Source of the DNA: Nostoc sp. FACHB-152
GTDB lineage: Bacteria; Cyanobacteriota; Cyanobacteriia; Cyanobacteriales; Nostocaceae
Direction: 5' to 3'
DNA: 64,000 nt
NCBI RefSeq assembly: GCF_014697475.1
Contig: NZ_JACJRV010000006.1
Location: forward strand, 1-64,000
The stretch's first letter is position 1, and each line of letters starts with the position of its first letter. A program made the translations under genes and the position numbers. Shown piece by piece: positions 4,245 to 17,535 of the stretch. The notes beneath the pieces are model-generated. The model was not told where the DNA came from and made no database searches. It worked only from the letters and a program-made list of their open reading frames with translations.

Positions 4245-5018
4245 ATGAAGTATTGGCGCGAAACTATAGCTGTGACGCAGCGCATATTAATTGAATTATT
4301 ACGTCGCAGACGCAGCTTGATTTTTTGGGCAATTTTTCCGGTTTCAGTGTTAATGCTGGGTGGTTATATTTTGGCAGAACGCGCAAAACTATCAATTGCT
4401 GACGCTTTTGCATATACTGCACCATCAACTTTGGTAGGTGCAGCATTATTTTTTAGCTGTTTGGGTGGAAGTGTCGCTACAGTAGTTGCAGAAAGAGAAC
4501 AACAAACTCTCAAACGTCTATTTCTCTCGCCTTTGAGTGGTACATCCTATTTTTTAGGAATTTTTTTAGCTCATAGTTGCATTGGCTTAGGACAAACATT
4601 GTTAGTTTATACTACAGCTGCCTTTTGGGGTGCTAGTTTTAAGGGTTCTATTTTCTTAGGGCTAATCATTATTATCATGAGTATTGTGGCTTATGTAGGC
4701 TTAGGGTTTATTTTGGGTACTCAATTGGCACGTCGTATCGAAGATGTTAATGCTTTAGTTGCAGCTTTTGGAGTGCCTTTGTTAATTTTAGGCGGAGCAT
4801 TGTTACCGAGTTCGCTGTTTCCTAAAACTTTAATTAATATTGCTAAATATAATCCTATTTATCATATGAATGAGGCTTTTGTAGGAGTATCTGCTAAGGG
4901 TGAGCAAGTTGGGGATATTGCTTCACATTTTTGGTTTTTAATAGTATTTGCTATGGCAATGATGATTGGTGGTTGGCTATCTTATCAGCGAATGTTGATA
5001 GTAGAGAGAAGATTATAA
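4245..5018 (+). CDS. ABC-2 type transporter permease
   Basis: The 257-residue protein has six hydrophobic segments, with a first helix near residues 24-44 and a cytoplasmic charged loop (VVAEREQQTLKRLFLSP) that matches the E-loop/coupling region of ABC-2 exporters of the DrrB/NodJ type. It is followed after only 4 bp by an ATP-binding subunit, so the two form an operon and presumably a homodimeric exporter. Substrate is not visible; the nearby polysaccharide genes make a lipid, glycan or drug substrate equally possible. Confidence 0.88.
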   Translation: MKYWRETIAVTQRILIELLRRRRSLIFWAIFPVSVLMLGGYILAERAKLSIADAFAYTAPSTLVGAALFFSCLGGSVATVVAEREQQTLKRLFLSPLSGTSYFLGIFLAHSCIGLGQTLLVYTTAAFWGASFKGSIFLGLIIIIMSIVAYVGLGFILGTQLARRIEDVNALVAAFGVPLLILGGALLPSSLFPKTLINIAKYNPIYHMNEAFVGVSAKGEQVGDIASHFWFLIVFAMAMMIGGWLSYQRMLIVERRL

Positions 5019-5022
5019 AAAG

Positions 5023-5916
5023 ATGTTATCAATTAACAATTTAAATAAGTCTTACGGTAAAACTAAAGTTATTAATAATTTAAATTTGCATATTAAATCA
5101 GGAGAGATTTACGGTTTAATAGGGGCAAATGGGGCGGGAAAGACAACCACTATTAATATTATTTGTAATTTAGTTAAAGCTGATAGTGGTAATGTTCAAA
5201 TTAATCAGCAGCCGATTTCGGCAGCAACAAAAAAGATAATTGGGATTGCACCTCAAGAAAATCTGCTATATAAAACTTTAACTTGTACAGAAAATTTAGA
5301 TTTCTTTGCTAATATCTATGGCTTAGATAAAAAAAATCGCCAACAACAAGTACAAGCAACTTTGGCGGCTGTGAATTTATTAGACAGAGCAAATAGTCCG
5401 GTAGAAACTCTCAGTGGGGGAATGCAGCGACGGTTAAATATTGCAGTTGCTTTAGTACATCAACCAAAGTTAGTAATTTTAGATGAGCCAACTACTGGGT
5501 TAGATATTGAAGCCAGATATGAGATTTGGGAGTTAATTCGGCAACTGAAAAATCAGGGAATTACAATTTTATTGACGACTCATTTATTAGATGAGGCGGA
5601 GCGTCTGTGTAATAAAATTGGGATTCTCAAGCATGGGCAAATTTTAGCTGAGGGTAGTTTAGCAGAGCTACGCGGGATAATTCCGGCTGCGGAAATTTTG
5701 GTTTTACAAACTACACAAGAAACAGAAGCGATCGCCTGCGCTCAAGCATCCGGTTTTACGCCTAGACGCTATGGTAAGGAATTAGCTTTTTGGCTACCAG
5801 AACCTCTGGAATTAAAAGAAATTATTGCGCGGTTTGAAGGGATAAAAATTGACGCGATCGCTCTTTCGCCTGTGCGTCTAGAGCATATTTATCTCGAAGT
5901 TACACAAAAAAATTAA
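5023..5916 (+). CDS. ABC transporter ATP-binding protein
   Basis: A single nucleotide-binding domain occupies residues 1-225: Walker A GANGAGKTT, Q-loop (APQEN), signature LSGGMQRRL, Walker B LVILDEPTTGLD and H-loop TTHLLDEAE are all intact. The C-terminal 70 residues are a regulatory extension common in DrrA/CcmA-type exporters. It is the energising partner of the permease immediately upstream and acts on the cytoplasmic face of the membrane. Confidence 0.92.
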   Translation: MLSINNLNKSYGKTKVINNLNLHIKSGEIYGLIGANGAGKTTTINIICNLVKADSGNVQINQQPISAATKKIIGIAPQENLLYKTLTCTENLDFFANIYGLDKKNRQQQVQATLAAVNLLDRANSPVETLSGGMQRRLNIAVALVHQPKLVILDEPTTGLDIEARYEIWELIRQLKNQGITILLTTHLLDEAERLCNKIGILKHGQILAEGSLAELRGIIPAAEILVLQTTQETEAIACAQASGFTPRRYGKELAFWLPEPLELKEIIARFEGIKIDAIALSPVRLEHIYLEVTQKN

Positions 5917-6573: not shown

Positions 6574-9500
6574 CTATGAATATTCAGCTTCTGCAACTTC
6601 CTGGGAAAACTTTTTATGAATTGTTTTAGAGTTTTCACCATCAGCAGCAACCGCAGTCATCAGATAGTCAATTAAGTTCTCTGAAAAAGGAACGCGGAGA
6701 TGGAATGTACCATCGGGTTTTAGAGAGATGGGATTACCCGCAATATTGACACTTGCATTAGGTTCCGTCGCACCGTGAATAATTAACTCTGCATCTGCTA
6801 CAAACCAGAAATCTTGTTGGGGACGACTGAAAACGCGAACCGCATTAGAACGGATAATTGTCACCCAACCGTCGCCTTCGATGACATAGCCGAGTTCAAT
6901 CATATAGTCCCGATCGCTTGTGGGAATAGCTACATAGCGATCATGGGTAATTTCTTCACATTCATACTGCTGTACTAATTGCGGTTGCTGATAACTTAAA
7001 TCAATATCAGTGGCATCATACAGCCGCAAAGCTAATTGAGTCACACCAGCATTATGCAGTATTTCTTTGCGATTTTCCGAAAGACTCCAAGAAGCGTAAG
7101 CCCACTTCGGAGTCCGAGGTGTGAGAGTAATAGTGCTATCGTCTGCTGGTAGCCAAGTTGCTGCCTCTAAAGAAATACCTTCATCTTCTACATAAGGAGG
7201 ACTGAAAAAGCGCACAATCTCAGAACGAGCGATGCTGACCCAGCGATCGCCTACAATTGGGTAGCCAATTTCTGCTACATAGTCGCGATCAGTTTCGGGA
7301 ATACTGACGCTGCTATTGGCTGTTTCCAAATCCAATTCGTACTGCTGCACCAATTGCGGCTGCTGATAACTCAAGTCTAGATTTGTGACATCATAAAGCC
7401 GCAAACCTAACTGGAATATGCCAGCATTTTTCAGCATTTGCTTGCTAGTGTCCGAAATTTCCCAAGAAACATCAGCGAATTGTTGGGTATTAGGTGTAAG
7501 AACAACACGGCTTGTCTCATCTACTAATACGACATTTGCCGTTGTATTATTTGTATGCGTATTGCCAAAGACGCGGACAATTTCAGAACGTGCTAGAGTT
7601 ACCCAGCCATCGCCTGCTATAGCATAGCCAATTGCTGCTATATAATCGCGCTCGGTTTGGGGAATTGCTACAGTACCATTAGAAGTGCTGAGTTCATAAT
7701 CATATTGCTGTAACAATTGCGGCTGCTGATAACTCAGGTCAATATTTGTGACATCATAAACTCGCAGATTTAATTGAGATTTACCTGCATTTTGCAGCAT
7801 TTGTCGGCCAGTTTCGGAAATTTCCCAAACAACATCAGCCGAGTTGTAACTGCTAGGCGTGAGGACAATGTTACTTTGGGGATCTGCGATCGCTAAAATG
7901 TCATCAGTTACACTAGTTGGCACTTGCCCGTTCAATTCTGGTTGGTTTATACCATCAGTATTAGATGACGCTGACACTGCTGCAACTAACACAGCAATAT
8001 CATCTAGTAATTCTGTGTCTTCTAAGTCGGGTTCTGCTGCATCCGCTACATGATTTAATTTCTCTATCTCTGGATCTAGCGGTTCTGCGCTACTTTCTGC
8101 TTGAGAATCTGCTGGGGTCACATCTTCCACTAGGTCAAAACCCCAATCATCTTCATTTACTGAGTCTTCTGGAATCTCAGGAAAATCAAGACTAGCATTC
8201 GCTTCTACTGGCGTGACTTGAGTACTCGTTTCAACTTCTGCTACTGGCGTAGTTGTTTCTGGAGTTGTTGCAGTTGCAGGTGATTCTGAATTATATGTAT
8301 TTCTCGACACATCTCCCATTGGTGGATATGTGGTATTGACTACCGCAGCAGGTGCTTCCATATCCCAAGGCGATATGCTCAGATCGTAACTATTATCCTC
8401 AGCTTTGTGATTGTCTGTTTCTTTGCCAATCACCATTGAACTGATCACAGCCCCAGCCCCAATTGCTAAACCTGTATCTGTTGTCGCTGGGGTAGTGCCT
8501 TCCAATAAGTTAGCAGTACCGTTATGAGGAGTGTTACCGTTCGTTCCATTGACTGGTGGAATTGCAGGTTCGCTGACAACAGTGTTATCTGCTATTGCTG
8601 TTGGTGCAGATGGCTCAGAACTTGCTGGTAATTGGTTTTCTGCTGCTGCACTATCTGACGAGGAGCTAGTTCTCACTATCCACAACAACAATCCAGCAAT
8701 GACACCCAAGGGTAACACCAACCACCAAAGCGGGATTTGTCCTTGGGAGAGGGGATTACTTGTTGAGGGAGCAGTAGCAGGTTGCTGTTGGCTAGATGTA
8801 GCAGCTGGGGCTGTAGTTGCTGCTGTAGTAGGTGCGGTGGTTGCTGCTGTAGTAGGTGCAGTAGTTGCTGCTGGTGGTGTAGCTTGGGCTGTGGTTGCTT
8901 CGGTAGTAGATGTTTGATTAACAACTAGCTGGAGTGTTGGTGTTTCACCTTTGGCGATCGCTTCTGCTTCTGCGGTTCTAGCTTGTTCTATAGCTTGTTT
9001 TCCTGGTTTTGCCAGTGCAAAGCCGAGAAAACCTGCTACAGCTGGGCTAGGATTGCTTTTGTAAACGTAAACTAAAGGTTGGGAGAAGGGATATTTAGGA
9101 TCATCTGGCAAAGCTTGATGCAACTGGAGAACCCGCACACCAGGTAACTTAGATATCTGATTAACTCTGGCATAGCTGATGCCATCTTTACCTAGTTGTT
9201 TGACGATTTCGGCGGTGTTGTCTTCAGTTAATTGAGTAGCGGTAGGGCCAGTAGTAAATTTTACTATCTTAAAAACTGGGTAGTTGTTGAGTGCTTGGCG
9301 GGTATCGCTAGTATCTGGGCGATCGATGACGCGAATCTTACCTGGAGGGCCGCCCACTTGCGACCAATCAGTAATTCTTCTACCTCGAAAAATTCTAGCG
9401 AATTCTTTATCAGTCAAGCTGCCCCGAAAGGGATTTTCTTCCCCGACAATGATCGCAATCTTTTCGCGGTGCAAACGGACTTGCTCTAAACCTTGAGCTT

Positions 9501-9855
9501 TTTCTTCAGGAGTCAAGCCGCGCCCGATCGCAGCTACATCAACTTTTCCTTCAAGTACAGCTTTGAGCGCCGCATCTGTACCATTATTGGCAACTTCTAC
9601 CTTTGTACCCGCAAACTGTTGCTCAAAACCTTGTTTGAGGTTTTGGTTAATGAGAGCCAAGCTACTTGAACCATCAACACGCACTGTAGAACCATTCTCC
9701 ACCGTTTGCGGCAGTGAGAAAGTAGGAGTCTCAGTGGCAGATTGTGCCAACACTGGTGCTGACACGAAGACATTTACTGCCATAGGGGTGGTAGCTAAGG
9801 CGAGCGATAATGCCAAATTGACGATCGCACTATCTTTTTTTTGTTGTTGCCACAT
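6574..9855 (-). CDS. PstS-like binding domain, transmembrane helix, three DUF4912 domains and C-terminal Ig-like domain
   Basis: This 1093-residue protein begins with a signal sequence (cleavage near APVLAQS, residue 38). Residues 50-295 form a phosphate-binding-protein-like (PstS/SphX type) domain with DGSSSLALIN as the ligand-loop equivalent. A Thr/Ala/Pro linker with an 8-residue repeat (TTAPTTAA) leads to a transmembrane helix at 374-394. An acidic low-complexity stretch follows, then three tandem DUF4912 units at about 664-763, 785-884 and 908-1008, each with a Y-D-V/A-T-x-I/L-D-L-S-Y-QQPQL core and a closing D-R/G-D-W-V/I-x-R-S sequence. Residues 1015-1085 look like a bacterial Ig-like beta domain. 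The topology would place the ligand domain outside and the DUF4912 units in the cytoplasm. Function unknown; a transmembrane anion sensor is only a hypothesis. Confidence 0.88.
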   Translation of the reverse strand: MWQQQKKDSAIVNLALSLALATTPMAVNVFVSAPVLAQSATETPTFSLPQTVENGSTVRVDGSSSLALINQNLKQGFEQQFAGTKVEVANNGTDAALKAVLEGKVDVAAIGRGLTPEEKAQGLEQVRLHREKIAIIVGEENPFRGSLTDKEFARIFRGRRITDWSQVGGPPGKIRVIDRPDTSDTRQALNNYPVFKIVKFTTGPTATQLTEDNTAEIVKQLGKDGISYARVNQISKLPGVRVLQLHQALPDDPKYPFSQPLVYVYKSNPSPAVAGFLGFALAKPGKQAIEQARTAEAEAIAKGETPTLQLVVNQTSTTEATTAQATPPAATTAPTTAATTAPTTAATTAPAATSSQQQPATAPSTSNPLSQGQIPLWWLVLPLGVIAGLLLWIVRTSSSSDSAAAENQLPASSEPSAPTAIADNTVVSEPAIPPVNGTNGNTPHNGTANLLEGTTPATTDTGLAIGAGAVISSMVIGKETDNHKAEDNSYDLSISPWDMEAPAAVVNTTYPPMGDVSRNTYNSESPATATTPETTTPVAEVETSTQVTPVEANASLDFPEIPEDSVNEDDWGFDLVEDVTPADSQAESSAEPLDPEIEKLNHVADAAEPDLEDTELLDDIAVLVAAVSASSNTDGINQPELNGQVPTSVTDDILAIADPQSNIVLTPSSYNSADVVWEISETGRQMLQNAGKSQLNLRVYDVTNIDLSYQQPQLLQQYDYELSTSNGTVAIPQTERDYIAAIGYAIAGDGWVTLARSEIVRVFGNTHTNNTTANVVLVDETSRVVLTPNTQQFADVSWEISDTSKQMLKNAGIFQLGLRLYDVTNLDLSYQQPQLVQQYELDLETANSSVSIPETDRDYVAEIGYPIVGDRWVSIARSEIVRFFSPPYVEDEGISLEAATWLPADDSTITLTPRTPKWAYASWSLSENRKEILHNAGVTQLALRLYDATDIDLSYQQPQLVQQYECEEITHDRYVAIPTSDRDYMIELGYVIEGDGWVTIIRSNAVRVFSRPQQDFWFVADAELIIHGATEPNASVNIAGNPISLKPDGTFHLRVPFSENLIDYLMTAVAADGENSKTIHKKFSQEVAEAEYS

Positions 9856-13490: not shown

Positions 13491-13802
13491 ATGCAATTAG
13501 TTAGTCGAGAGCATATTGCGATCACTTCTGATGTGCGGAGTGCAAAACCTTGCATTGCTGGTACTCGTATTGCTGTAGAGGATGTGGCCGTGATGCATTT
13601 AAAGATGGGGTATTCTTTAGTAGAGATTGCTGGTAAATATGACTTGTTACTAGCATCTGTCTATGCAGCAATGGCTTACTACTTTGATCACCGAGACGAA
13701 ATTGATAGCCGCACAGCGAAAGAAGAAGAGTTAGTTGAGATAATAAAGCAAAACCATCCCTCGCGTCTTCAAGAGAAACTTAAACAGTTGCGGAATGAAT
13801 GA
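13491..13802 (+). CDS. DUF433 antitoxin (VapB-like)
   Basis: This 103-residue protein has the DUF433 pattern: ITSDVRSAKPCIAGTRIAVEDV followed by a helix-turn-helix-like GYSLVEIAGKYDLLLASVYAA and a YYFDHRDEID segment. DUF433 proteins are the DNA-binding antitoxins paired with PIN-like toxins. Its end overlaps the start of the next gene by 8 bp, indicating translational coupling. It should neutralise the toxin and repress the operon. Confidence 0.88.
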   Translation: MQLVSREHIAITSDVRSAKPCIAGTRIAVEDVAVMHLKMGYSLVEIAGKYDLLLASVYAAMAYYFDHRDEIDSRTAKEEELVEIIKQNHPSRLQEKLKQLRNE

Positions 13803-14130
13803 GCGAATTCGCTTTCATTTGGATGAAAATGTCGATCCGGCGATCGCGCTTGGCTTACGACGTTATGGAATTGATGTTACAACAACCAATGATGTAGAAT
13901 TACGTACCCAAAGTGACGAAGTTCAGTTAGCGTTTATTCAGAAAACACAGCGTGTCTTGTTCACTCAAGATGCAGATTTTTTAATTATTGCAAGTTCTCG
14001 ACTTGATCATCCTGGCATTACATACTGTAAGAAAGGAACCCGCTCAATTGGTGAAATTCTTGAAACCTTAATTTTAATTAATGAGGTAATGACACCTAGA
14101 GAGATGGTAGGACGTGTTGAGTTTGTGTAA
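13795..14130 (+). CDS. DUF5615 PIN-like toxin
   Basis: This 111-residue protein is a Mut7-C/PIN-like nuclease toxin of the DUF5615 family. HLDENVDPAIALGLRRYGID at the N-terminus carries the first acidic residues, and FTQDADFLIIA carries the DxD cluster of the PIN active site. It is translationally coupled to the DUF433 antitoxin upstream and would cleave RNA when released. The pair is complete and looks functional. Confidence 0.88.
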   Translation: MNERIRFHLDENVDPAIALGLRRYGIDVTTTNDVELRTQSDEVQLAFIQKTQRVLFTQDADFLIIASSRLDHPGITYCKKGTRSIGEILETLILINEVMTPREMVGRVEFV

Positions 14131-15624: not shown

Positions 15625-16413
15625 TTACGCACCCATCCCTGAATATCGCTTTAAACCTGCACGCCACAACGCACGATTCACTCCCAACAACAAAACTATC
15701 CAACCAATCATTGACATAAACCCTCGCGCTATATCTACTGGTAGCCCCACTAAAAGACTTGCAGGGAAGTTAATTAAATAAGGGAAAGGTGTAAAAAACA
15801 CTATATTTCGCACTTGTTCAGGAAAGACATTTAAAGGCGCAATCATCCCTGATAAAAATAAAAAGAATAAAAACCAGAAATTCTCTAAAGCACTAGCTCG
15901 TTCTGTCCAAAAGGCAAACATTGCCAGGGTATATTGAATTACAAATCGTAAAATAAACGCTAACACTACCGCTAATGTAAATAGTAGTATTTGACCGAAA
16001 TTAGGCAACCAAACAGCTTGAGGATACAACAGAAAGAACAAGACTATTAACGAAATAGTAAACGGAATGCGAGCTACTCTTTCAGAAAGATGTGCGGTAA
16101 CATGATGCCAAACTGGATCTATCGGTTGTAACAATCTGGGAGATAGTTTACCTTCTACTACTTCTTTTTCAAATTCCCAAATTACCCAAACTACTGTGAT
16201 TTGTCTCACAAGAAAAACTGTGAGAAAGTACCGAGTAAAATCTACAGATGTTAAACCAAACTGTCCTCCTTGCGCTGCTTGTATCCACACACCCATCAGG
16301 ATAATTGGCAAAGACCCGGACAACACCCATAAAATTGATTCTGCCCGATACTCCAGCGTATTAGCATAGTAAACTGACAGCAAAACCCCAGCTTTTCTAA
16401 TAATCTGTTTCAT
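15625..16413 (-). CDS. ABC-2 family exporter permease (DUF990-like)
   Basis: The 262-residue protein has six hydrophobic segments and resembles the ABC2_membrane_6/DUF990 permeases, with N-terminal RKAGVLLSVYYANTLEYRAE and a central FWTERASALENFWFLFFLFL segment. Many systems of this type have two different permeases with one ATPase; only one is here, so the partner is elsewhere or the protein works as a homodimer. It lies 141 bp downstream of the ATPase gene in the same direction. Its stop codon abuts a heptamer repeat (TTACCTGTTCCCTGC). Substrate unknown. Confidence 0.85.
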   Translation of the reverse strand: MKQIIRKAGVLLSVYYANTLEYRAESILWVLSGSLPIILMGVWIQAAQGGQFGLTSVDFTRYFLTVFLVRQITVVWVIWEFEKEVVEGKLSPRLLQPIDPVWHHVTAHLSERVARIPFTISLIVLFFLLYPQAVWLPNFGQILLFTLAVVLAFILRFVIQYTLAMFAFWTERASALENFWFLFFLFLSGMIAPLNVFPEQVRNIVFFTPFPYLINFPASLLVGLPVDIARGFMSMIGWIVLLLGVNRALWRAGLKRYSGMGA

Positions 16414-16554
16414 TGATATAGGAATCCGGTTTGATTACTGAACATACCTGTGTAGTCAGGCAATAGGCAATAGGCAGGTAACAATGTACTGATTTTTTTC
16501 AAAAATCAAATACTAGTCCTATAATTTGTTTACTATTGAAAAACTCAGCAGTTT

Positions 16555-17535
16555 CTAGATAACTCCCGCCTGAAATACTTTACCAATTACCTCTTCTATG
16601 GGCGGTTCGGTGACTTTTAAATCAATCACTTCTAAATCTGCCAAAATTTGAGCTACGGTTCGTGTCAGTGCATCTTGCTCTACTATAAAGCTTACTGCTC
16701 GTCCGTCTAAGAGTTGTACTTCTCCGTAAGATTTGAGTTTTTCTTTTGGTAAGGGTTGGGCTAACTCTACATGAACTTCTCGATATGGTGCAAAGCGTTC
16801 TAGCAGCCCATCTAAACTACCGTCATACATTAGCTTTCCTTGGTGAATTAACAGCACTCGCTGACACAATGCGGTAATATCAGCCATATAGTGGCTAGTT
16901 AATAACACTGTCGCCTGATAACGCTGATTGTACTCGCGCAAAAAGTCACGCACAGCCACTTGAGCATTCACATCTAAGCCTAGTGTTGGTTCATCTAAAA
17001 ACAATACTTGAGGACGGTGCAAAAGTGCTGCTAACAATTCTGCCTTCATCCGCTCGCCTAATGACAGTTTTCGCACTGGCTGGTTAAGCTGACCATCCAA
17101 AAACAGCATCTCTGATAATTCACCTACCCGCCGGTGAAATTCTTTATCGGGGATGTCATACACAGCAGCATTAATTCTCAAAGAATCCATTGCTGGTATA
17201 TCCCAGAGAAGTTGCTGCTTTTGTCCCATGACTAAGGTAATTTTTTGTAAAAATGCTTCTTGACGCAGAAAAGGGGTGTGTCCAGCAACTTTGATTGTTC
17301 CACCAGAAGGATGTATCAAACCCGTCAGCATCTTCAATGTCGTAGTTTTACCTGCGCCATTTGGCCCCAAAAACCCCACCACCTCACCGGGAGCAATTTC
17401 AAAGGAAACATCCTGTACAGCTTTAATTACACGGTAGTTACGCCGGAAGAAGTGGGTAATTGTCCCGGCAATACCTGGCTCTTTGACAGCTACAGGATAA
17501 AATTTACTGAGATTTTCAACAAATATATTTGACAT
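16555..17535 (-). CDS. ABC transporter ATP-binding protein (paired with DUF990-type permease)
   Basis: The 326-residue protein carries one nucleotide-binding domain with Walker A GPNGAGKTT, signature LSLGERMKAEL, Walker B VLFLDEPTLGLD and H-loop LTSHYMADI. The LSLGER variant and the long C-terminal extension with EPPIEEVIGKVF are typical of the ATPases that pair with DUF990/ABC-2 permeases. It is the first gene of a two-gene operon with the permease at 15625-16413. Confidence 0.9.
   Translation of the reverse strand: MSNIFVENLSKFYPVAVKEPGIAGTITHFFRRNYRVIKAVQDVSFEIAPGEVVGFLGPNGAGKTTTLKMLTGLIHPSGGTIKVAGHTPFLRQEAFLQKITLVMGQKQQLLWDIPAMDSLRINAAVYDIPDKEFHRRVGELSEMLFLDGQLNQPVRKLSLGERMKAELLAALLHRPQVLFLDEPTLGLDVNAQVAVRDFLREYNQRYQATVLLTSHYMADITALCQRVLLIHQGKLMYDGSLDGLLERFAPYREVHVELAQPLPKEKLKSYGEVQLLDGRAVSFIVEQDALTRTVAQILADLEVIDLKVTEPPIEEVIGKVFQAGVI

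Follow-up and report, generated by a model that had tools for sequence, protein, structure and literature searches.

A family of PstS-like binding domains fused through a membrane helix to DUF4912 in cyanobacteria and its possible tie to alpha-glucan metabolism

Architecture of the fusion protein

We analyzed a 64,000-nucleotide stretch of Nostoc sp. FACHB-152 (contig NZ_JACJRV010000006.1, positions 1 to 64,000; hereafter, the window). An open reading frame (ORF) at 6574–9855 on the minus strand, with an ATG start, encodes a protein of 1093 aa in which a periplasmic binding protein (PBP) domain is fused to DUF4912 domains. The order along the chain is an N-terminal hydrophobic stretch, a PBP_like_2 domain, a T/A/P-rich spacer, a helix, an acidic linker, three DUF4912 units, and a beta-strand tail, and all of these features are given below in minus-strand coordinates. 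An earlier note on this DNA had described one 1093-residue chain with a PBP fold, one helix, an acidic stretch, three DUF4912 units, and an Ig-like end. This description holds up to the third DUF4912 unit, whereas the Ig-like nature of the end is unproven, with only strands being predicted there.

The putative signal peptide (residues 1–38; 9742..9855) is hydrophobic at residues 9–27 (mean Kyte–Doolittle (KD) hydropathy 1.63). The stretch closes with V-L-A-Q, V-L-A standing ahead of the presumed cleavage site, and A37 was invariant in 17/17 aligned full-length proteins. The PstS-like binding domain follows at residues 41–295 (8971..9735), with a Pfam match to PBP_like_2 (PF12849) at residues 56–281 (E 3.4e-32, 112.7 bits vs a cut-off of 27). 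In the spacer (residues 296–374; 8734..8970), 49 of the 79 residues are T, A, or P. Hydropathy placed the only strong helix past the PBP domain at residues 376–394 (8674..8730; mean KD 2.36), followed by R395, which agrees with the membrane helix that had been proposed at 374–394. The long linker behind it (residues 395–655; 7891..8673) is acidic, with 48 D+E against 5 K+R in 261 residues. A full-length model built from 17 sequences had a mean confidence (pLDDT) of 52.5 and was too poor in its PBP part, and it was used for disorder and the DUF4912 stretch only. In this model, pLDDT was below 50 across residues 299–656, and the spacer and the linker are predicted to be disordered.

Inside the otherwise poorly conserved linker, a short conserved patch, WDxEAPxAVVN, was found at residues 496–511 (8323..8370), where the window protein reads PWDMEAPAAVVNTTYP; E500, P502, and V506 were invariant in 17/17 proteins. 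A stricter pattern for this motif matched 14 of 88 fused ORFs (the set described below), all 14 from genomes of the same family. The patch looks like a docking motif.

The three DUF4912 units lie at residues 655–769 (7549..7893), 776–890 (7186..7530), and 901–1015 (6811..7155). Pfam recognized DUF4912 (PF16258) in three stretches, with a whole-protein E of 5.9e-73 and 243.1 bits vs a curated cut-off of 29.4, and the genome profile search scored the three places of the gene at 103.7, 79.9, and 79.0 bits. Pairwise identities among the units were 50, 53, and 59%, and like strand patterns were seen in all three in the full-length model. Structure prediction of each unit, as the earlier note had proposed, was successful for unit 3 with the tail (195 residues, mean pLDDT 86.5), but the PBP part remained poor in the full-length model. 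Unit 3 was modeled as an FN3-like beta-sandwich, and its best structural match was the FN3 protein 3n1g_C (Z 8.5, rmsd 3.2, 101 aligned residues); the ten best matches were all FN3 proteins with Z of 8.0–8.5, which is barely above the range of common arrangements. The tail (residues 1013–1085; 6601..6819) was modeled with good confidence as a row of strands. It had no Pfam match, and the tail of a paralogue gave a Glucodextran_B match below threshold (E 0.016). A search of solved structures with the DUF4912/tail part was discarded, as it returned one irrelevant match (E 0.18). The Pfam scan of the window protein found no kinase, cyclase, or DNA-binding domain.

Family, membrane topology, and binding pocket

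The distribution of the fusion was examined in two genome samples. In the phylum-wide sample, 77 of 146 genomes matched the window protein somewhere, largely through its single-domain parts, and the fusion was present in 18/18 other genomes of the same family, in 17 as one ORF. In genome G127, the N-terminal half stops near the end of one contig and the C-terminal half lies at the edge of another; among the 17, the G051 fusion is a shortened version, with a single DUF4912 unit and no tail detected. In the class sample, the PBP profile matched at E 1e-20 in 331 of 388 genomes, standalone relatives included, and two of 24 same-family genomes (G439 and G448) were without a strong PBP match. From the top of the class-sample PBP matches listed, 60 loci with long frames were picked; together with the first batch, they gave 91 PBP-bearing ORFs longer than 420 aa, 88 of which were complete in their locus. 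DUF4912 was found in 80 of these 88 (one unit in 27, two in 34, three in 17, four in one, and five in one) and not in the remaining 8, and the C-terminal tail was present in 43 of the 80, although such fractions are not natural frequencies because long frames were picked. As judged from these sequences, the window protein is not unique but is one member of a large cyanobacterial family of PBP fusions.

When the best hydrophobic window past the PBP domain was taken as the helix, K or R occurred within 8 residues after it in 86/88 fusions, and the mean net charge was +1.6 after vs −0.3 before it; the helix commonly reads like PWWLLLLPLLGGLLWWLLKGRR. This charge pattern and the invariant A37 support a location of the PBP domain outside and of DUF4912 inside the cell. 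The count is not proof of topology, since some of the windows score low and, in a few proteins, an Ala/Gly-rich stretch may be the one selected. The standalone PBP relatives that were fetched carry an N-terminal helix in place of the C-terminal one.

The closest solved structure to the PBP domain was Sll0540 of Synechocystis (PDB 9l8j, E 2.3e-50), which is called a PstS homologue or a potential phosphate-binding protein in the parts of the literature consulted (PMC3610870, PMC5053081, PMC11221513, PMC3564720). By alignment, Sll0540 belongs with the standalone relatives, carrying both SGT and SR. The window protein scored 83 bits with the PstS-family model TIGR02136 (NCBIfam), below the cut-off of 206.6. 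A pocket alignment was then assembled from 94 fused PBP domains (those of the 91 ORFs and three that were shorter or cut), 7 standalone relatives, two PstS-like controls from the window's own genome, and the 4gd5 stretch; the loops compared are presumably those that contact phosphate in PstS. Three positions were altered in the fused group. The Gly of SGT in loop 4 was replaced by Asp or Glu in 91/94, the Ser preceding the loop-3 Arg by Gly in 84/94, and the loop-2 Gly by Ala in 83/94, whereas all 7 standalone proteins had the Gly, Ser, and Gly. Both controls had the loop-3 Ser and the loop-2 Gly, and the SGT alignment was obtained in only one of them. The window protein carries all three changes relative to 4gd5 and the standalone relatives, with Asp at the SGT Gly. 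The Arg, Ser, and Thr of the R..S.T loop were retained in 90, 90, and 88 of the 94 domains, and two pocket Arg residues (in loop 3 and at the end of loop 4) in all 94.

The expectation that fused PBPs retain the phosphate pocket was thus contradicted, and the ligand may be other than plain phosphate. The proposal of phosphate as ligand keeps the support of Sll0540 as the nearest structure and is weakened by the three conserved differences. An altered pocket that is nonetheless conserved suggests that there is a true ligand, though another one. In comparison with Sll0540 and other PstS/PBP_like_2 proteins, the fused PBPs share the fold and, in most, the R..S.T anion loop, but they differ in the three pocket changes and in being anchored by a C-terminal helix of their own to a cytoplasmic arm.

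Inner parts, gene linkages, and neighborhood

Some members of the family carry other parts behind the helix. Locus L066 (genome G011) encodes a PBP domain, a helix, TPR, and a full-length phosphorylase (PF00343, E 5e-261). In a phosphorylase search of 36 genomes of the family of L066, 12 places, mostly with long frames, were chosen and fetched; PBP and phosphorylase were joined in one ORF at 10 loci, L066 included (with a partial PBP match in L296). The phosphorylase ORFs of L298 and L299 are cut by the contig end, and L297 is an unfused degenerate copy with a Lys in the catalytic-lysine column and little else in common. In the 10 fusions and in L298 and L299 (12/12), the Lys of GTGNMKF, which we take to be the lysine binding pyridoxal phosphate, was replaced, and the His of NDTHP was changed to Asp, whereas five ordinary phosphorylases retained both. 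The KR pair of KRIHEYKRQ was kept in none of the 12, with the R remaining in L288 and L289. In view of these changes, the fused phosphorylases look like a conserved dead enzyme.

The phosphorylase fusions are themselves neighbors of PBP-DUF4912 genes. In L066, L288, L289, and L292, the phosphorylase fusion, a gene for a 131-aa protein (L066:7606-8001, L288:4776-5171, L289:10156-10551, L292:3252-3647), and a PBP-DUF4912 gene follow one another on the same strand, with an additional 105-aa ORF called between the two fusions in L292. In L293, a shorter relative of the 131-aa protein stands between the phosphorylase fusion and a PBP fusion without detected DUF4912. A gene of the 131-aa type also adjoins the phosphorylase fusion in L291, L294, and L295, but not in L290 and L296. 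The same domain forms the C-terminal end of 11 distinct PBP-DUF4912 ORFs, at L066, L117 (twice), L126, L131, L132, L137, L147, L150, L288, L289, and L292. The proteins of L288 and L289 contain the motif WSTLNGYDD, and the 131-aa protein matched nothing in Pfam up to E 1 and nothing in the PDB.

Pfam found TPR in the phosphorylase fusions of L066 and L293 and not in those of L288 and L289. The PBP module was joined to a full acetyl-CoA synthetase in L160:377-4567 and L162:2138-6343, with intact-looking motifs TSGSTGKPKG and PKTRSGKIMRR. WD40 and TPR occur in the fusions of L154 and L169, the former having DUF4912 in addition, and a coiled coil and HHH (HHH_5 repeats) follow the PBP domain and helix in L067. 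L052 and L061 showed Pfam domains of the PBP kind only; Pfam covered the main ORFs of seven of the eight fusions without DUF4912, the eighth being that of L163. These swapped inner parts fit a modular receptor rather than a transporter subunit. Among the papers listed in searches of open-licence literature, in which absence is weak evidence, nothing relevant was found on PstS-like transmembrane sensors, on combinations of binding proteins with pseudoenzymes, or on inactive glycogen phosphorylase.

DUF4912 also occurs without a PBP domain. The soluble DUF4912 protein of the window's own genome (L001:874-2124) consists of Rho_N, one DUF4912, and the same C-terminal tail as the window protein (Pfam); it has Rho_N instead of the PBP domain and neither signal peptide nor helix. 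DUF4912 was present in every listed genome of the same class or closer except G039, mostly in frames of 400–495 aa. In the proteins examined, DUF4912 and the tail make up the main part of chains whose N terminus lacks a hydrophobic stretch, joined in cyanobacteria to Rho_N (identified by Pfam in one and by eye or pattern in the others). Therefore, a tail on the cytoplasmic side, which the earlier note had found odd, is not. The L118 fusion keeps a body of the Rho_N-DUF4912 type to its C terminus. Three proteins of this type (L196:5686-8700, L228:5731-9255, and L230:5725-8130, of 1004, 1174, and 801 aa, with Rho_N assigned by a crude pattern) have a stretch between DUF4912 and tail that is hundreds of residues longer than usual.

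In a scan of named genomes (best 80 of 538 confirmed stretches), genes for DUF4912 with the tail were found outside the oxygenic cyanobacteria in Omnitrophota (L185, L187, L254), Elusimicrobiota (L189), and UBA8530 (L176). They share DUF4912 and the tail with the window protein, lack a PBP domain, and directly precede a same-strand gene of 526–543 aa, in which Pfam found Glyco_hydro_57 and BE_C in 5/5. Four of these GH57 neighbors were tested against NCBIfam, and all four matched 1,4-alpha-glucan branching protein models, far below the equivalog cut-offs. Among 97 genomes sampled from the phylum (Omnitrophota) of G470, to which L185 belongs, 64 of 76 DUF4912 places had a GH57 match (among those listed) that lay on the same strand and began no more than 1.5 kb downstream, scored with PF03065 only and not BE_C. 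A linked GH57 was present in 62/63 DUF4912-bearing genomes; of the 12 unlinked places, 4 were in G555, the sole genome without a link, and 8 were extra copies beside a linked one. By arithmetic, with 0–7 GH57 matches per genome of 0.7–3.5 Mb, well under one link would be expected by chance. At L111, the DUF4912 and GH57 ORFs overlap as called, and at L188, a same-strand GH57 in two ORFs lies beside DUF4912 in a bin that is perhaps mixed. A 744-aa ORF with a weak GH57 match (L172:823-3057) was seen convergent with a PBP-DUF4912 fusion.

The earlier note had stated that DUF4912 has no established function. Experimentally this is still so, but the neighborhood points to GH57 alpha-glucan branching enzymes. 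Among open-licence papers, where absence again weighs little, no function for DUF4912 was found, and it was named only in a cotton expression table. A review of prokaryotic alpha-glucan enzymes (PMC11046441) covers GH57 branching enzymes, and its first 300,000 characters contain neither DUF1957 nor fibronectin.

Around the window gene itself, no PstC/PstA-type permease was recognized among the ORFs within 20 kb (14 window proteins, the fusion included, were given to Pfam). The earlier statement that no ABC permease is nearby appears correct for the Pst type but not in general, as two ABC-2 type transporter pairs flank the gene within ~6 kb (4245–5916, plus strand, and 15625–17535, minus strand). 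The other Pfam-tested neighbors include MerR-CbiC, RPE65-like, and polysaccharide genes. Directly upstream on the same strand lies a MerR regulator with a CbiC-like domain (PF13411 and PF02570; 10372–11493, minus strand), presumably resembling the cobalt regulator CoaR; such a gene occupies this position in six loci (the window, L035, L036, L037, L043, and L050). A conserved operon partner was rejected, because gene-order clustering of the window, L001, and 40 loci revealed no neighbor common to most same-family loci. An overlapping pair of DUF433 and DUF5615/PIN-like genes (13491–13802 and 13795–14130) has the look of a toxin–antitoxin pair.

Elsewhere in the genome, PstS-like genes with three pst-like followers are present on contigs C171 and C130, the followers being assigned by size and mutual similarity, not Pfam; those on C171 look like pstC, pstA, and pstB. 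On C171 (L095, C171:1-16000), an ordinary full-length glycogen phosphorylase gene lies directly upstream of the PstS-like gene and its three followers on the same strand. Four GH57 matches were found in this genome, on C169, C35, C134, and the window contig ~190 kb away.

Candidate function and alternatives

A sensor or tether is the best idea for the window protein, and the phosphate ligand is not secured. The new point is that DUF4912 and this receptor family appear tied to alpha-glucan metabolism; the linkage of DUF4912 to GH57, the PBP-phosphorylase fusions, the gene pairs, and the glycogen phosphorylase gene ahead of the PstS-like gene on C171 all point to this tie. We propose that the protein spans the membrane once and, as a receptor or tether, links a ligand outside the cell to alpha-glucan metabolism in the cytoplasm, a reading whose chances we judge to be about even. 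The K/R sign after the helix and the two invariant pocket Arg residues also favor this reading. The apparently exported PstS-like domain would bind a small ligand, such as phosphate or a different oxyanion, or else one carrying both charges, the last being conceivable because the pocket has gained an acidic residue. Inside the cell, the DUF4912 modules would dock on alpha-glucan (glycogen) or on branching or phosphorylase enzymes, and binding outside would alter where or how glycogen is handled, either because the helix relays a signal or because glycogen or enzymes are kept close to the membrane at the site of ligand entry. Paralogues swap the inner part, which would suit a receptor of modular build that reads the state of carbon and energy. 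In BvgS-type kinases, a periplasmic binding domain is likewise connected across the membrane with a cytoplasmic portion, but no kinase, cyclase, or DNA-binding domain was found in the window protein.

Several observations weigh against this proposal. The search for phosphorylase fusions covered a single family plus five selected genomes, and the altered phosphorylase may be without glucan binding. The fold match of DUF4912 is FN3 and not a known carbohydrate-binding module. The sampled Omnitrophota genomes are related, and their 64 linked places are not 64 independent events. The oxygenic-type cyanobacterial loci that were fetched had no same-strand GH57 neighbor in the profile search, L188 excepted; the weak match of L172 (E 3.7e-8) is on the opposite strand, and L175/L109 and L110, outside the oxygenic group, are also without a GH57 neighbor. 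The DUF4912 genes of the window's own genome adjoin neither its four GH57 matches nor glgP on C171. In addition, the Rho_N domain of the core cyanobacterial DUF4912 protein and the HHH repeats at the end of L067 point to nucleic acid.

This last point leads to an alternative in which the fusion is a membrane tether for nucleic acid or transcription that carries the body of the Rho_N protein (DUF4912 and tail) to the membrane. The soluble protein of the same genome, the near-constant presence of DUF4912 in genomes of the same class or closer (all listed except G039), the HHH_5 repeats of L067, and L111, where the DUF4912 gene ahead of GH57 starts with a Rho_N-like stretch by eye, are in its favor. 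However, Rho_N was absent from the Pfam tables of the tested PBP-DUF4912 fusions (for L154, the best 25 of 53 rows), the GH57-linked proteins of L185, L187, L189, L254, and L176 have no Rho_N-like start by a crude pattern, and, in the part consulted of a paper on cyanobacterial termination (PMC13289151), BLAST gave no RHON1 homologue in its strain. We regard this alternative as rather unlikely. A phosphate-specific sensor of the Pho type, in which the outer domain reports phosphate and the targets of the inner part are phosphate genes or transport, would fit the PstS-like fold, the nearest solved relative Sll0540, and the retained R..S.T loop, but the pocket changes of the fused group, the lack of a kinase or DNA-binding output by Pfam in the window protein, and the lack of recognized pst genes beside its gene make it unlikely.

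The FN3-like fold of DUF4912 and the long flexible arms would suit an envelope or cell-shape tether without a ligand, in which the PBP domain is a scaffold and DUF4912 and the tail are FN3/Ig-like adhesive modules. Such a scaffold would not need the two Arg residues found in every fused pocket or the other, nearly as constant, pocket positions, and the DUF4912 part is predicted to be cytoplasmic, so that we consider it improbable. That the protein is the usual substrate-binding subunit of an ABC importer for phosphate, to which a decorative tail has been added, is very improbable. The PBP_like_2 match favors this reading, but the protein falls far below the PstS-family cut-off (83 vs 206.6), ~700 residues follow its helix, and no pstC, pstA, or pstB was recognized alongside its gene, with pst-like sets standing elsewhere in the genome. 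The preference of the earlier note for a sensor or tether over a transporter is therefore upheld by the protein's own membrane helix, by these pst-like sets and the low PstS-family score, and by the recurrence of the architecture with the same topology sign.

Beyond the receptor or tether proposed above, we put forward with greater reserve a new class of one-piece transmembrane receptors in cyanobacteria, which would sense an extracytoplasmic ligand with a re-tooled phosphate-binding domain and act directly on the glycogen store through DUF4912 modules docking on glucan or branching enzyme and, in sister genes of the same operon, through the dead phosphorylase; this is possible, but we would not yet expect it to hold. 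Glycogen phosphorylase uses phosphate as its co-substrate, and phosphate inhibits the ADP-glucose pyrophosphorylase of cyanobacteria. A Synechocystis proteome study, consulted in part, reports more of one glycogen phosphorylase under low phosphate (PMC3600050). If the receptors act on glycogen, this would explain how the outside nutrient state, with phosphate as one candidate, reaches carbon storage, which is relevant to cyanobacterial cell factories. With a one-piece receptor of this kind, the outside nutrient state would be wired straight to carbon storage, with no two-component system in between. A conserved family of phosphorylase-like proteins that have lost the catalytic lysine and are tied to a membrane sensor would represent a novel type of regulator. 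For DUF4912, which is widespread and for which we found no assigned function, a tie to alpha-glucan branching would supply one.

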